Shown one piece after another: positions 10,962 through 57,630 of a stretch of DNA of 57,630 bases; within the stretch, counting starts at the first letter, position 1; every line of letters starts with the position of its first letter. The notes beneath the pieces were generated by a model. The model had not been told where the DNA came from. It made no database searches and saw nothing but the letters and a program-made list of their open reading frames with translations. Where the stretch lies: positions 1 to 57,630 of the IMG/VR virus record IMGVR_UViG_3300028045_000016; one strand, 5' to 3'. Made by a program: the position numbers and the translations under genes. Origin of the DNA: a virus.

Positions 10962-12395
10962 ATGAGTGTACAAAGCGTACCCGGATTTGATTTACAACCA
11001 TCAGCACAACAAGTGCCGGTTGCATCAAACTACATAACTAACTTTGATTTCTTGAATCAGTATCTTCCTGATACTTACGAAAAGGAATTTGAGCGTTATG
11101 GAAACAGAACAATCTCCTCATTCCTAAGAATGGTAGGAGCAGAAATGCCATCTAACTCTGACCTTATCAAATGGGCAGAACAAGGAAGATTGCATACTAA
11201 GTATACTGACTGTACAACTGCAGCAGTAATTAATGCTAAAGAAGCTACTTTTGCAGTAAACGATGCAGGTAACCCTGCTTTCGGTGCAAGTAACAGTATC
11301 GCTATTAGAAAAGGACAAACAGTAATGGTATCTGACAATGCAGGTGGTGGTTCCGTAAAAGGAATTGTAACTGATGTTGACTTAGCTAACTTTACTTTTG
11401 ACGTAGCATTTTACCCATTAGCAGGTATTCCTATTGCAGGAGCAGGTGCTAAGTTTACTGTGTTTATCTACGGTTCTGAATTTAAAAAAGGAACAGTAGG
11501 GATGGAAGGAAGCCTAGAAGCTGACGACCTAATCTTCGAGAACTCACCAATTATCATTAAAGATAAGTATGCAGTATCAGGTTCTGATATGGCACAAATC
11601 GGTTGGGTTGAAGTAACTACAGAGAACGGTGCTAACGGATACCTATGGTATTTGAAGTCTGAGCACGAAACTAGATTACGTTTTGACGATTATCTAGAGA
11701 CTGCAATGATTGAAGCAGTTCCTGCTGAAGCAGGTTCAGGTGCAGCAACCGGTGCTATTAACCCTGAGTACGGTAACAAAGGTTCTGAAGGAATCTTCTA
11801 TGTTGTTGGAAACAGAGGTAACGTATGGGCAGGTGGTTCACCAACGGCTCTAACACAATGGGATACTATTATCTCAAGACTTGATAAGCAAGGAGCAATT
11901 GAGGAAAACGTTGTATTTGTAGATAGAGATTTCTCTTTCGACATTGACGATATGCTTTCTCAGCAGTCTTCTAATGCAGCAGGTGGTGTATCTTACGGTC
12001 TTTTTGACAATGAAAAAGATATGGCATTGAACTTAGGATTTACAGGATTCCGTAGAGGTTACGATTTCTACAAGTCTGATTGGAAATACTTGAACGACCC
12101 AACAATGAGAGGTGGTCTTTCTGCAGCAGCAGGTTCAGGTAGAGTAAACGGATTGTTAGTACCTGCAGGTTCTACTTCAGTTTATGACCAAATCTTAGGA
12201 AAGAACGCTAAGAGACCATTCTTGCACGTTAGATATAGAGCTTCTGAAACAGAAGACAGACGTTACAAGACTTGGATTACAGGTTCAGCAGGTGGAGCAA
12301 GAACTTCTAGCTTAGATGCTATGGAGGTACACTTCTTATCTGAAAGAGCAGTATGTACTCTAGGTGCAAATAACTTTATGTTATTCCAATCGTAA
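10962..12395 (+). CDS. Major capsid protein
   Basis: The 477-residue shell protein is predicted to have the HK97 fold. The C-terminal third carries FLHVRYRASETEDRRYKTW followed by TGSAGGARTS and VHFLSERAV, which I recall as the signature of crAss-like major capsid proteins. Residues of about 85-175 are Gly/Ala/Val-rich and beta-prone and may be an inserted surface domain. The gene ends just before a strong terminator (12410-12438), fitting a highly transcribed gene insulated from its neighbours. Confidence 0.93.
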   Translation: MSVQSVPGFDLQPSAQQVPVASNYITNFDFLNQYLPDTYEKEFERYGNRTISSFLRMVGAEMPSNSDLIKWAEQGRLHTKYTDCTTAAVINAKEATFAVNDAGNPAFGASNSIAIRKGQTVMVSDNAGGGSVKGIVTDVDLANFTFDVAFYPLAGIPIAGAGAKFTVFIYGSEFKKGTVGMEGSLEADDLIFENSPIIIKDKYAVSGSDMAQIGWVEVTTENGANGYLWYLKSEHETRLRFDDYLETAMIEAVPAEAGSGAATGAINPEYGNKGSEGIFYVVGNRGNVWAGGSPTALTQWDTIISRLDKQGAIEENVVFVDRDFSFDIDDMLSQQSSNAAGGVSYGLFDNEKDMALNLGFTGFRRGYDFYKSDWKYLNDPTMRGGLSAAAGSGRVNGLLVPAGSTSVYDQILGKNAKRPFLHVRYRASETEDRRYKTWITGSAGGARTSSLDAMEVHFLSERAVCTLGANNFMLFQS

Positions 12396-47327: not shown

Positions 47328-48263
47328 TTATTCCTGCAGGTAGGCAACTACTTTTGTAGCTTGTTGCATCGCATAAACACATTCCTGTGGTTTATCTGAT
47401 AGGTTCTTGCACCATCCTTTGATATAGGCTTGGCTATTACCACCACCATCTTTTGGATTCAATCCTAACAACCCAACCAAGTACCAAGATGATATCTCAG
47501 CAACTAACTCTTCCTTAGCATAAGAATTGTCACCCCAAAAAGAAATCTCAGTCATAGACTTTCTATTCAATCTTGACTTGTGACCGGTGCTATGTGCCAA
47601 CTCGTGAAACAATGTCTTGTAGTAGCTATCAGCATCAATGAACGTTTCTAACATTGGCATATTCACAATGTCTTTTGATGGTGAGTAAAATGCTGAGTTT
47701 TCTCTGTGGGTTATCTTGAACCCGTTTTGCTTAGATACATAGTTACTTACTAATTCCTCAGCAACTTGGTTAGGTTCGTTAACTACATCAGATACAACCT
47801 CGTCTTTCACCATTGGTGAGATGCCTTCTGTTTGTGATACATTGAACACCTTGTAAAATCTTACAGAGAAAGTCTTTCTGTATCTATCTTTCCCGTCAGC
47901 CATTTTCTCACTTGGATTGATTCTAGCAATCATATTGGCAGGTACAAATTTACCGGTTTGATTGTCGAAGTAACCTATCTGCCAAAAGTATACTTCAGTA
48001 GATTTGCTACCCTTTAAAACTTTACCACCTGCAGCACTAATCTGTTTGAACGTCATCCATTGGTTGTGTTCCCAATCCATTTCACGCATTACACAATTCA
48101 ATAAAAAGATATTGAACCCGTTGTAGTATCTCTTGGTTTGTAGGTTGAATGGTGCATTCTCATTGCCACCTTTCCAAGGCTTGAACCATTGCATTCCTTC
48201 TTTCTCTAATCCCTTGATAACTAGGTCGTTAATTCTAGCAAATACGTCATTTTGATTTTTCAT
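47328..48263 (-). CDS. ArdC-like antirestriction protein with zincin domain
   Basis: The 311-residue protein has the ArdC N-terminal ssDNA-binding pattern: GMQWFKPWKGG (23-33), RYYNGFNIFLL (45-55) and TFKQISAAGGKVLKGSKSTEV. The C-terminal metallopeptidase-like domain has HELAHSTGH (H220, E221, H224) and a downstream EELVAE. ArdC-type proteins protect incoming DNA from restriction; phage and plasmid copies are known. It is the first gene of the early block and has a strong promoter, consistent with immediate expression after entry. Confidence 0.88.
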   Translation of the reverse strand: MKNQNDVFARINDLVIKGLEKEGMQWFKPWKGGNENAPFNLQTKRYYNGFNIFLLNCVMREMDWEHNQWMTFKQISAAGGKVLKGSKSTEVYFWQIGYFDNQTGKFVPANMIARINPSEKMADGKDRYRKTFSVRFYKVFNVSQTEGISPMVKDEVVSDVVNEPNQVAEELVSNYVSKQNGFKITHRENSAFYSPSKDIVNMPMLETFIDADSYYKTLFHELAHSTGHKSRLNRKSMTEISFWGDNSYAKEELVAEISSWYLVGLLGLNPKDGGGNSQAYIKGWCKNLSDKPQECVYAMQQATKVVAYLQE

Positions 48264-48763: not shown

Positions 48764-48958
48764 ATGAAAGCAAAGTTTCAAAGTATGGGTGGACTAACCG
48801 TAAAGGATGGTAGACTCATTAACGATAGACCCAACGGTATTACAGGTATTGCACAAGCTGCACAATTAAAGAAGTCATCATATAGAGCCAAGAAGGTAGA
48901 TATGATGGCAGACGGTATTGAGTTAGCTGAAGGCAGAAAGAACTTCTACAGAATGTAG
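48764..48958 (+). CDS. Small basic protein, single-gene unit
   Basis: The 64-residue protein is basic and helix-prone (GIAQAAQLKKSSYRAKKVDM in the middle), with no recognised motif. It has its own promoter box and a strong terminator, so it forms a monocistronic unit at the boundary between early and late blocks. A small DNA- or RNA-binding regulator is a reasonable guess from charge and position only. Confidence 0.68.
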   Translation: MKAKFQSMGGLTVKDGRLINDRPNGITGIAQAAQLKKSSYRAKKVDMMADGIELAEGRKNFYRM

Positions 48959-49020: not shown

Positions 49021-49021
49021 G

Positions 49022-49095
49022 TACCCCCTTCAGGACTCGAACCTGAAACCTACACATTAGAAGTGTGTTGCTCTATCCAATTGAGCTAAGAGGGC
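49022..49095 (-). tRNA. tRNA-Arg (anticodon UCU)
   Basis: The 74-nt - strand sequence folds as a tRNA: acceptor GCCCTCT/AGGGGGT with two G-T pairs, D arm GCTC...GAGC, anticodon stem ACACA/TGTGT with loop CTTCTAA (anticodon TCT, 49059-49061), and T arm TCAGG/CCTGA with TTCGAGT. The discriminator base is A and CCA is not encoded. It reads AGA, the dominant Arg codon of this phage. Confidence 0.95.
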
Positions 49096-49328: not shown

Positions 49329-49336
49329 TATCTTTG
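49329..49336 (+). promoter_or_regulatory. -7 promoter box of the chaperonin operon, TATCTTTG
   Basis: TATCTTTG plus TC lies 23 nt before the groEL ATG; no TTG at 17-23 nt. The 136 nt between R2 and this box hold only a CTA-triplet run and AT-rich sequence. Confidence 0.62.
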
Positions 49337-49359: not shown

Positions 49360-50943
49360 ATGTCAGAACTAGGATACACCCCTAAGAATCTATTGTTCGA
49401 CCAAGAGGGCAGACTAAAGCTTTCTAACGGAATCGAGAAAATAGCTAAAGCAGTTAAGTCAACTTTAGGTCCGGCAGGACAAACAGTATTAATTGAATCT
49501 CCACAACACACCCACGGAATCACAGTAACTAAGGACGGAGTAACAGTAGCTAAGTCTATTGCTTTGCTCGACCCTACTGAACATCTTGCCGTAAGAATTA
49601 TGCAAGAAGCTGCAGAAAAGACTGCAACAAGTGCAGGTGACGGAACAACAACTGCTATTGTTTTAACTGAAGCTTTAATAAAAGCAGGGAACAGACTTAT
49701 AAAAAATAACAAGACACAAGTCTTGAGGGACCTTGCTAGTGATACCAACTTAATTGTTTCTAACCTGAAGGCTAAAGCCAAGCAAGTTTCTAATAAGATG
49801 TTAGCTGACGTAGCATCCATATCTGCAAACAACGACAAAGATTTAGGTGATATTATATCAGAGGTGTATACCAAAGTAGGAAAGCACGGAATCGTTGCAG
49901 TTGATAAGTCAGAGACTTCAGAAACATATTATGATTATACTAATGGATTGAAAGTAGACAGAGGATACCAATCTCCATTATTCGTAAACAATCAAAAGAA
50001 AGATGAATGTATCTTAGAGGATGTACATATTTTAGTTAGTGATGCATCAATTGACAACATTCTTAATATTGAAAATATATTAAAGCCTGTTATACAGGAA
50101 GGTAAGAAATTACTAATCATTGCTCCAACCTCAACCAACGTAGTTAATACTTTAGCTGCTAACGTTATGAAAAACGGATTAAAGATTTGTACGGTACCCC
50201 CACCAAACTTTGGATATAAGCAACACGAACTTATGCAAGACATTGCTATTAGTGTTAACGCTACATACTTTAGTGAAAAGACGGGAGACGATTTAAGCTT
50301 GATGACAGTAAACGATTTGGGTCACGCTGCCAAGGTGATAGTTGGTCGTGACTCAACGGTCATCATTAAAGATAACGAAGAGGATTCTCAGCTTGGGATG
50401 TCTGAGCGTATAAAAGAATTACAGGAGGCTCATAAAAATGCTACTAAGAAACAAGACAAAGAATTTATTTTAAGCAGGATTGCCTCATTGAAAGGTGGTG
50501 TAGGGGTCATCTTTGTTGGTGGTAACACAGACCTTGAGCAGAAAGAATTGTATGACCGTGTTGATGATGCAGTATGTGCAGTACGTTCTGCACTAGAAGA
50601 GGGCATTGTTACCGGAGGTGGTCTTGCTTTATTTAGTGAGAGTTGTAATCTAGATGATTCAACAGTATCAAGTCAAATCTTAAAGGAAGCATTAAAGGCT
50701 CCTATAAACCAAATCATATCAAATGCAGGTTTGGACCCTGAGGAAATAACAGGAGAAAATTTAGTATCGGGTGACTATGGGTATGATGTAAAGAATGGTG
50801 TGTATGGAGATATGTATGATATGGGTATTATAGACCCATTGAAAGTTACAAGGTCTGCATTACAAAACGCAGTATCTGTAGCAACAACGATTTTATCAAC
50901 TAACGCTATTGTAACAATGGCAAGAACATACGAAGACAAATGA
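49360..50943 (+). CDS. groEL: Phage chaperonin GroEL (Hsp60)
   Basis: The 527-residue product is a full-length group I chaperonin subunit that folds proteins in the cytoplasm using ATP. Conserved residues are present: TKDGVTVAKS with D59 (E. coli D52), AGDGTTTA with D94 (E. coli D87), and VDDAVCAVRSALEEG with D403 (E. coli D398), followed by TGGGLAL. Equatorial, intermediate and apical regions are all present. The C-terminal GGM tail of host GroEL is absent (it ends ARTYEDK). It stands first in its operon, followed by a membrane microprotein (ATGA overlap) and groES, the reverse of the usual groES-groEL order. It may fold phage capsid or giant tail proteins. Confidence 0.96.
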   Translation: MSELGYTPKNLLFDQEGRLKLSNGIEKIAKAVKSTLGPAGQTVLIESPQHTHGITVTKDGVTVAKSIALLDPTEHLAVRIMQEAAEKTATSAGDGTTTAIVLTEALIKAGNRLIKNNKTQVLRDLASDTNLIVSNLKAKAKQVSNKMLADVASISANNDKDLGDIISEVYTKVGKHGIVAVDKSETSETYYDYTNGLKVDRGYQSPLFVNNQKKDECILEDVHILVSDASIDNILNIENILKPVIQEGKKLLIIAPTSTNVVNTLAANVMKNGLKICTVPPPNFGYKQHELMQDIAISVNATYFSEKTGDDLSLMTVNDLGHAAKVIVGRDSTVIIKDNEEDSQLGMSERIKELQEAHKNATKKQDKEFILSRIASLKGGVGVIFVGGNTDLEQKELYDRVDDAVCAVRSALEEGIVTGGGLALFSESCNLDDSTVSSQILKEALKAPINQIISNAGLDPEEITGENLVSGDYGYDVKNGVYGDMYDMGIIDPLKVTRSALQNAVSVATTILSTNAIVTMARTYEDK

Positions 50944-51041
50944 TAGTAGATGTGATTATAGGAGTAGTGGTAGTAGGTATAGTGTTTGGTGGATTGGTTT
51001 GGAAAATGATTCAAGAAGACAAAAACAAATACGGTGATTAA
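50940..51041 (+). CDS. Single-pass membrane microprotein
   Basis: ATG 50940 overlaps the groEL stop (ATGA) and opens 33 codons. Residues 2-22 are a continuous hydrophobic stretch (IVDVIIGVVVVGIVFGGLVW), followed by a charged tail (KMIQEDKNKYGD). One membrane pass is clear. Translational coupling to groEL and position before groES suggest a genuine gene; its role is unknown. Confidence 0.6.
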   Translation: MIVDVIIGVVVVGIVFGGLVWKMIQEDKNKYGD

Positions 51042-51057
51042 AAAAGAATGGCTCTTT

Positions 51058-51342
51058 ATGGACAAGGCTGAAAAACAAAACACAATGAAACCAATAGGTA
51101 AGTATATTTTAATAAACCCAATCACAGAAGAAATAAAAACCGAGTCAGGTATTTTACTATCTGCTGATGATGTTCAGAACATCAGGTATAGAAAAGCAAG
51201 TGTTGTAGTACCGGGTACAGATGTAGAAAATATTTCTACAGACGATGTAATCTATTATGATTCAAGAGCAGGTTACACAATGATGATTAAAGACAATATG
51301 TATACAGTTATTACTGAGAGGGATGTTGTTGTTGTCGAATAG
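51058..51342 (+). CDS. groES: Co-chaperonin GroES (Hsp10)
   Basis: The frame reaches a GTG at 51034, but ATG 51058 (94 residues) or 51085 (85 residues, MKPIGKYILINP) is more natural for GroES; 51058 is given. The protein shows the chaperonin-10 order: N-terminal strand, mobile loop KTESGILLSADD with the hydrophobic tripeptide ILL (IVL in E. coli) that docks on GroEL, VPGTDV, a DDVIYYDS strand and a C-terminal TVITERDVVVV. It should cap the GroEL encoded just upstream. Its 3' end overlaps the convergent regulator gene by 32 nt. Confidence 0.9.
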   Translation: MDKAEKQNTMKPIGKYILINPITEEIKTESGILLSADDVQNIRYRKASVVVPGTDVENISTDDVIYYDSRAGYTMMIKDNMYTVITERDVVVVE

Positions 51343-51739
51343 ACTTGTTTAATTTTTTTATATAATTCCTATACACCTTATCGTTATAGGAAACATTTTT
51401 CAGAAATAGAGGGTTAGAAGATGCACTTTCAGGTATCTCTTGACCCTCTAGTTTTTTATAGATAGAAGTAATTACTCGTTGAGCCTTGTATGATAATTGG
51501 TATACTGCTCTACGATTTCCCTTTCGTTTCCTAAAAGATTCTATCCAACCTTCCTTTCTTAGATTCTCAAATCTATTTTTATCCCAACTTACTAACTCAT
51601 TAAACTCATCAAAGTCGTTCTTGTCAAAATATTTTTCCGTATGTAAGAACAATAAGATGTCTAAGTCTGCTTGGCTTAAACCATACTTCGCTTTAATGAA
51701 GTATCGAATTACTCTCCAATATTTAAGGTAATCAGGCAT
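51311..51739 (-). CDS. Winged-helix (MarR-like) transcription regulator
   Basis: The 142-residue protein looks like a winged helix: GLSQADLDILLFLHTEKYF (20-38), a second helix LVSWDKNRFENLRKEGWIES as recognition region, and RAVYQLSYKAQRVITSIYKKL as wing and dimer helix. I recall similar proteins in flavobacterial phages. It is the only - strand gene in the late block, reads against groES and diverges from the basic-protein operon, sharing a palindromic promoter region with it. It probably regulates one or both flanking operons. Confidence 0.72.
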   Translation of the reverse strand: MPDYLKYWRVIRYFIKAKYGLSQADLDILLFLHTEKYFDKNDFDEFNELVSWDKNRFENLRKEGWIESFRKRKGNRRAVYQLSYKAQRVITSIYKKLEGQEIPESASSNPLFLKNVSYNDKVYRNYIKKLNKSIRQQQHPSQ

Positions 51740-56197: not shown

Positions 56198-57630
56198 ATG
56201 GCAATAAAGTATTTAGATGCGATTGACTTAACGGGATTAGAAATCCAAAATGTCCTCGCACAGAGCAATCCGGGTAATCCGGCAACGGCATTAGGCGAAG
56301 GACAATTCTTTTTCGACTCAACTGCGAAGACATTAAAGTATTATAACGGTACTGCTTGGGTAGAACTTGATGGACAAGGTGGCGTAACAGGAATTGTAGC
56401 AGGTAAAGGTATTACTGTATCTAATCCAACAGGGTCAGTTACGGTTGGTGCTGATTATTCAAGTGCAACAAACATTATTCTTTCTGCAACAAATGCAGCA
56501 GGTACTCCTGTTCCTCCGGAAGCACAGATTATCTACAACGAAAAGTCTGTAGTAAAGTATGCTCAGGTTCAAGATTTACCTTTTACTGCTAACCTAGGTA
56601 CAGTAACAAGTGTAGGTGTATCAAATGCAGCAGGAACTTTTGTAACTGTAGGTTCGTCAGGTGGAACAACTCCTGCAATCTCAGCAAACTTAAACGCAAC
56701 AGGAACTGCAAGTGCAACTACTTACCTAAGAGGTGATAACAGTTGGGCAACTATTCCTTCAGGATTCGCAGGATTCGATATTAGTGATGGAAAATCTCCA
56801 TTCTCTGTAGCTTCAGGAAACGTAGTTTTATTCTCATCTTCAACATTAGACATTGCTACAAGTACTGCTTTAACTGTTGATATTGAATTACCTGTTACAG
56901 GAATTACTGCAGGTGCTTATACCTCAGCAGATATTACGGTAGATGCTCAAGGTAGAGTAACTAAAGTTAGCGATGGTGGTGCAGGAACAATGAGTTCATT
57001 CACACTAACATCAGATAGTGGTACAGACCAAATAGTAACTGACGGACAGACACTTAATATAAGTGGTGGTACTGCATTGTCAGGTGTAGTTGGTGCTACA
57101 GATAAAGTGACTATTAATCACGATGCCTTTGGAACTGCAGGAACATATGCATATCCTTCACAGGTAGTTACAAACGCAACCGGTCACATCACCTCTATTA
57201 CTGCAGGTAGTGCTCCGGGAACAATGAGTTCGTTTACTATTGAAGCTGACTCAGGAACTGCTGAATCAATTAGCAATGGAAACTCAATAAACTTTGCCGG
57301 TGGTGAAGGTATTGTTACTGATGTAGCAGCTACAGATACTATTAATATTGTACTTGACCTTTCGGAACTTCCTACAAAAACTGCAAAGGTAGACCCTAAG
57401 ACAGATTACTTAGTTGGCTTGTTTGATAAAGGAGCAGACCAAAACAAGGTTATTATTAATGACCTTGGTCTTAGTCTTTGGGGAGCACCTACCGTGGATT
57501 TAAGTATGGCATCTAACAAAATTACTGATGTTACTAATCCAACGGCAGCACAGGATGCAGCAACTAAGAACTATGTAGATACAACATTCGCAGGTTCAGG
57601 AGCATTAATCTACCAAGGTGGATACGATGC
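56198..57630 (+). CDS. Large tail fibre protein, 3' partial
   Basis: ATG 56198 opens a frame that stays open to the window end (477 full codons plus two bases). The N-terminus (MAIKYLDAIDLTGLEIQNVL) looks like a virion-attachment domain, followed by an FFFDSTAKTLKYYNGTAWVE segment typical of phage fibres, then Gly/Ala/Thr-rich beta repeats, twice with a PGTMSSFT-/GTMSSFT-type start, and DVTNPTAAQDAATKNYVDT near the end. Joined to position 1 it would continue in frame into the collagen-like protein, giving a fibre of about 1047 residues. Confidence 0.87.
   Translation, partial: MAIKYLDAIDLTGLEIQNVLAQSNPGNPATALGEGQFFFDSTAKTLKYYNGTAWVELDGQGGVTGIVAGKGITVSNPTGSVTVGADYSSATNIILSATNAAGTPVPPEAQIIYNEKSVVKYAQVQDLPFTANLGTVTSVGVSNAAGTFVTVGSSGGTTPAISANLNATGTASATTYLRGDNSWATIPSGFAGFDISDGKSPFSVASGNVVLFSSSTLDIATSTALTVDIELPVTGITAGAYTSADITVDAQGRVTKVSDGGAGTMSSFTLTSDSGTDQIVTDGQTLNISGGTALSGVVGATDKVTINHDAFGTAGTYAYPSQVVTNATGHITSITAGSAPGTMSSFTIEADSGTAESISNGNSINFAGGEGIVTDVAATDTINIVLDLSELPTKTAKVDPKTDYLVGLFDKGADQNKVIINDLGLSLWGAPTVDLSMASNKITDVTNPTAAQDAATKNYVDTTFAGSGALIYQGGYD

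Follow-up and report, generated by a model that had tools for sequence, protein, structure and literature searches.

The window, a 57,630-nucleotide stretch that makes up IMG/VR virus record IMGVR_UViG_3300028045_000016, encodes an intact groEL gene followed by an intact groES gene, and the pair is a core feature of the phage group to which the record belongs. Both genes are conserved and, judging by their substitution ratios, are under purifying selection, which bears out the claim of the preliminary description that a complete GroEL/GroES pair is phage-borne. Phage GroEL/GroES pairs are already known, and the distinctive part of the window pair is a structural remodelling that extends across its clade. 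We think it likely that the two proteins form a private folding cage for virion proteins.

Distribution and origin of the phage pair

The record that carries groEL and groES is a virus record with terminase, portal, and capsid-like genes. It probably represents an almost complete genome that is circularly permuted, because its end halves join as one frame and match neighboring stretches of a related contig. Specifically, positions 56198-57630 joined to 1-1711 give a single open frame of 1047 aa with collagen-like repeats, and neighboring stretches of the related contig (L323) match both end halves, with about 730 bases extra between them.

Relatives of the pair are numerous. When IMG/VR was scanned with the window GroEL, at least 452 contigs were found to encode relatives, and the best 80 of these at least 452 had GroEL identities of 63-83%. 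Of these 80 viral loci, which had been selected by GroEL, 77 have groES downstream of groEL and on its strand, and groEL preceded groES in every examined pair of the window lineage. The gap between the genes ranged from -44 to about 1000 nt across relatives. To avoid the bias of selection by groEL, related contigs were chosen by their terminase or capsid-like gene and then scored for both chaperonin genes. Both were present in 10 of 10 contigs of at least 54 kb and in several contigs of 34-53 kb, and they were jointly absent from the remaining selected contigs, which measure 39-51 kb and may be incomplete. We conclude that groEL and groES are core to the phage group because both were found in contigs picked by terminase or capsid.

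The preliminary description considered such a pair unusual. Instead, the pair is core in its lineage, is annotated both in Elemovirus and in MW202828, and has precedents in the literature. Some phages encode both GroEL and GroES (PMC7185714), both proteins are encoded by Maribacter phage Panino (PMC11590407), and there are Flavobacteriaceae phages with GroEL (PMC5332604). MW202828.1 (Podoviridae sp. ctfjg026, from Manatee Spring) has an annotated groeL and an annotated chaperonin 10 kd subunit, and it resembles the window in its groEL-then-groES order, its convergent neighbor (annotated as a repressor), its genome layout, its roofless GroES, and its groove residues. Its GroEL is only 60% identical, however, its chaperonin genes overlap, and it has no such intergenic ORF. 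Elemovirus, comprising the isolated Flavobacterium phages elemoA-F (~60 kb), is also annotated with groEL directly followed by groES and also has a short GroES roof and no GGM tail, but its GroEL is 40% identical, retains host-like residues at R231 and L234, and sits on a long branch. Finally, Callevirus phi38:1/Calle, Immutovirus, and Bacteroides phage DAC20 have a phage GroEL with a nearby Cpn10 gene, but their order is groES first and they fall outside the window clade.

In a maximum-likelihood tree of 102 GroELs, the window GroEL belongs to a phage-only clade: a 53-row core that includes the window has a support of 100, a long stem, and zero cellular rows. Elemovirus joins this core at weaker support (80) and over long branches. 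Every Bacteroidota genome locus examined had the order groES-groEL, most with a GGM-like tail, and the window lineage and Elemovirus have the order groEL-groES and no tail. The reversed, groEL-first order remarked on in the preliminary description is indeed the opposite of every host locus sampled. According to PMC9611531, Marine et al. 2017, a study of virioplankton chaperonins, linked gene order to GroEL phylogeny. Moreover, when 84,980 species genomes of bacteria and archaea were scanned, eleven relatives of the window GroEL were returned, and no bacterial chromosome held a near relative. Of the eleven, one, with 36% identity, was a true cellular GroEL. The other ten lay on small contigs that had been binned into MAGs from scattered phyla, and wherever such a contig was complete enough for a judgment, it had the phage gene order. 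The preliminary description had proposed a GroEL phylogeny and had named near-identity to a host genome as a sign of assembly error. The tree placed no cellular row within the core, and the nearest cellular GroEL was the distant one just described, with phage genes flanking the window pair.

An assembly chimera or a recently captured host operon might be imagined, as homologous genes exist in nearly all sampled bacteria, but we give that explanation next to no probability. The number of viral contigs with relatives, the conservation of phage genes on either side of the pair, the gene order, the phage-only clade, and the scattered MAG-binned contigs that make up the closest bacterial-genome matches all count against it. 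Contamination by host DNA or chimerism was ruled out by the related viral contigs, the flanking phage genes, the clade, and the genome scan, and the same sequence comparisons exclude a recent acquisition of the pair from a host. The phage lineage is probably old and composed of podovirus-like phages of ~57-65 kb with Bacteroidota hosts.

Intact proteins with an altered lid, groove, and ring interface

The groEL product matches Cpn60_TCP1 over its whole length (Pfam PF00118, E 4e-55) and chaperonin groEL in PHROG (E 1e-131). An AF2 monomer model (pLDDT 84) found PDB matches exclusively to GroEL/Hsp60, over ~525 residues and with ~37% identity to GroEL, and the Pfam match and the model together indicate that the three-domain, full-length Cpn60 fold is present. 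The preliminary description had reported a full-length GroEL with ATPase residues D59, D94, and D403; the ORF is intact, and the residues align correctly with D52, D87, and D398 of E. coli. The ATP/Mg site is complete (T35, G37, P38, K58, D59, D94, G95, T96-98, D403, and D492). Core ATP-site residues are invariant in 54 of 54 phage GroELs, with variation limited to E. coli positions 33 (one sequence), 415, 454, and 479-481. The hinges and an intra-ring pair of the R197-E386 type are also kept. groEL evolves at a dN/dS ratio of about 0.1 and groES at ratios that mostly stay below 0.25, values that indicate strong purifying selection on both. Chance is ruled out for the two genes because of the E values, the full length, and the dN/dS of about 0.1.

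The listed groES ORF opens at GTG 51034, and the start taken in the earlier reading was too early. Starts at 51034 or 51058 were rejected, as relatives begin at the position of ATG 51085 (MKPIGKYILI), which homology also favors, and nearly all relatives have a GroES of 85 residues starting MK(P/A)I. The Cpn10 match exceeds the Pfam cut-off (E 6e-11). A Cpn10 beta-barrel is supported by Pfam PF00166, by an AF2 monomer model (pLDDT 91.6), and by the PDB matches of that model, which are Cpn10/GroES, with T4 gp31 (1g31) ranking 32. The mobile loop with an ILL tripeptide noted previously was found (KTESGILLS), and mobile loops of the SG(L/I)xLS type are nearly clade-wide.

Absent from the preliminary description were the loss of the GroES roof, the replacement of the lid-binding groove, and the loss of inter-ring salt bridges. 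The roof beta-hairpin is a usual GroES feature that is also missing from gp31, and it is absent from the window GroES, in which the model shows a roof segment without strands. That segment is 11 residues long in the window and in 93 of 94 phage-locus sequences; by comparison, the T4 gp31 segment has 13 residues, that of E. coli has 20, and those of 31 Bacteroidota have 15-20, and certain host GroES proteins are also short-roofed (15 residues). T4 gp31 is itself a phage co-chaperonin without roof loops that serves the folding of ~56 kDa gp23 (PMC6318259). Unlike the window GroES, gp31 is longer and acts on host GroEL, as T4 has no GroEL of its own. We note that the roof segment is also missing from the GroES of Bacteroides phage DAC20 (L104), a groES-first locus outside the clade, perhaps through an independent loss. 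The missing GGM tail was described correctly. The tail is a common rather than a defining feature of group I, and 6-14 residues extend beyond E. coli position 521 in phage GroELs versus 18-33 in cells.

In helices H and I, which bind lid and substrate, replacements (R231L, L234E, E238K, A241I, V263A, and V264A) are fixed across 52-53 of 54 phages. Unless the groove has been rebuilt, L234E should lower its affinity for the lid. Both inter-ring salt bridges occur together in 1 of 54 phages versus 31 of 33 cells, and, as with the roof, tail, and groove, this is a clade-level change in which shared ancestry makes the counts nonindependent and the evolutionary events few. A second (pairwise) alignment method gave the same result, and variability at the inter-ring columns exceeds that of equatorial columns drawn at random (P 0.003). 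In the window GroEL, the right-site pair is clearly lost (N450/D459), and a left-site bridge is still possible between R112 and D432/D433. The loss of bridges suggests, at the level of sequence, that a second ring is weak or absent, though a double ring may be held through other contacts. For mtHsp60, missing inter-ring bridges are described as in keeping with its failure to form a stable double ring (PMC5575113). mtHsp60, also without the bridges, belongs to group I.

Gene neighborhood

Features in and around the chaperonin locus, and the candidate client, with positions in the window
Feature	Position	Strand	Description
Virion structural (capsid-like) protein	10962..12395	+	477 aa, 51.8 kDa; phrog_13704, E 3e-99
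ArdC-like anti-restriction protein	47328-48263	-	ArdcN and zincin-like metallopeptidase domain
64-aa ORF	48764..48958	+	Upstream of groEL; conserved
tRNA-Arg (tct)	49021-49095	-	Just upstream of groEL
TAnnTTTG element, TATCTTTG	49329..49336	+	31 nt upstream of groEL; Bacteroidota-type -7 promoter
groEL	49360..50943	+	527 aa, 56.8 kDa; phage-clade group I chaperonin
33-aa membrane-like ORF	50940..51041	+	In the groEL-groES gap; not conserved
groES	51085..51342	+	85 aa; roof hairpin absent; mobile loop KTESGILLS; Pfam PF00166, E 6e-11
Convergent neighbor gene	51311..51739	-	142 aa; overlaps groES 3' end; possible winged-helix regulator

The element upstream of groEL conforms to TAnnTTTG, which we take to be the Bacteroidota -7 consensus. 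Of 89 related loci, 77 have the element in the 150 nt that precede groEL, mostly at a distance of 24-37 nt, and controls over the 89 loci gave 11 by shuffling and 14 on the minus strand. Its presence supports a Bacteroidota host for the window phage and suggests that groEL opens its own transcription unit. A scan for sigma-70 promoters and terminators gave a signal not above that of shuffles, and a search for repeats around groEL and groES found nothing meaningful.

The preliminary description pointed to a microprotein between the genes. The ORF is present, but the slot it occupies varies: in the nearest relative (L004, with a GroEL identity of 83%) the gap holds an ORF of no relation to it, and relatives in general have unrelated small ORFs or none, on which ground a role for the 33-aa product as a chaperonin component was rejected. 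The gap is a hot spot where small ORFs of unrelated kinds turn up between fixed flanking genes (L004, L010, L021, L044, L053, and others), and the ORFs include zinc-finger-like and membrane-like kinds. On the far side of groES, a homologue of the 142-aa neighbor adjoins groES in 91 loci and is on the opposite strand in 90. The neighbor has a weak PHROG match to a transcriptional regulator (E 0.0016), and it may serve groEL and groES as an antisense or regulatory partner. Upstream, the 64-aa ORF has homologues in 78 loci, on the same strand as groEL, and gave neither a PHROG match nor a known family. The tRNA-Arg gene was the only tRNA or Rfam family found in the search for RNA elements.

A probable dedicated folding cage and its alternatives

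What follows is our inference on how the phage chaperonin assembles, how large its cage is, how many rings it has, whether the pairing is private, and when and on which client it acts. An ATP-hydrolyzing ring of group I GroEL is predicted to bind its own phage GroES as a lid, and together they would build, in the course of infection, a cage in which phage proteins fold. A roofless lid, like that of T4 gp31, on a tail-less ring should leave a chamber that is larger or open at the top. The clade-specific residues of the helix H/I groove would make the phage GroEL and GroES probable private partners, and with the inter-ring bridges lost, the cage is possibly a single ring. The preliminary description offered the 3004- and 1559-residue virion proteins as clients. 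Their masses are 338 kDa and 172 kDa, far above the capacity of a GroEL-type cage, and they were rejected as clients that could not be enclosed whole. The capsid-like protein of 52 kDa would fit a GroEL-type cage and is the better and most plausible candidate.

The pair could instead be a canonical double-ring GroEL/GroES, interchangeable with that of the host, that merely boosts the chaperonin supply during infection. The retained ATP site, hinges, and intra-ring pair, a fold that matches bacterial GroEL, and the one inter-ring pair still possible in the window GroEL would all be compatible with a supply role. The lid-binding residues, however, are replaced and fixed, both inter-ring bridges are kept in a single phage GroEL of the 54, and the roof and tail are both missing. 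Moreover, hosts own groES-groEL already, and supply alone leaves the fixed divergence unexplained, such that we regard simple supplementation as unlikely. Less probable still is a nonencapsulating holdase or GroES-independent folder like the chaperonins of phages EL, OBP, and AR9. Those proteins are, like the window protein, phage GroEL homologues, they have single-ring states, and they act without a co-chaperonin (PMC5934643, PMC9598537); the L234E replacement also falls within the lid-binding groove. They differ from the window protein, however, in being far more divergent, in needing no GroES, and in belonging to giant phages. EL-GroEL has an identity of ~22% (PMC7185714) versus ~37% for the window GroEL, which is in a different clade from EL. 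High divergence and the lack of a groES gene, the hallmarks of the EL/OBP/AR9 type, were not found here; instead groES adjoins groEL, is under strong purifying selection, and has a conserved mobile loop.

The private cage for virion proteins remains our preferred reading, and a narrower form of it concerns ring number. Perhaps the phage protein is a GroES-dependent chaperonin that needs only one heptameric ring, capped by a private lid without a roof, the loss of the bridges and the rewiring of the groove having coevolved for lid release, a proposal that we hold tentatively and think somewhat doubtful. Single-ring E. coli GroEL has been made functional through weakened lid binding (PMC5575113), and the groove replacements, taken together with bridge loss, would fit the need of a single ring for a weaker lid.

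The biochemically studied phage chaperonins that we found in the literature (EL, OBP, and AR9) are GroES independent, and our literature search returned no report of a roofless lid, a rewired groove, and missing inter-ring bridges in one phage system. The lineage described here offers hundreds of natural two-part variants in which the roof, tail, groove, and ring-ring contacts have changed together. It is suited to testing lid release from a single ring and enlargement of the cage for capsid proteins via loss of roof and tail. The pair also places a chaperonin among the core genes of a phage group that is widespread. Were the single-ring proposal true, a lid would be freed without a second ring by the core chaperonin pair of hundreds of Bacteroidota podophages.
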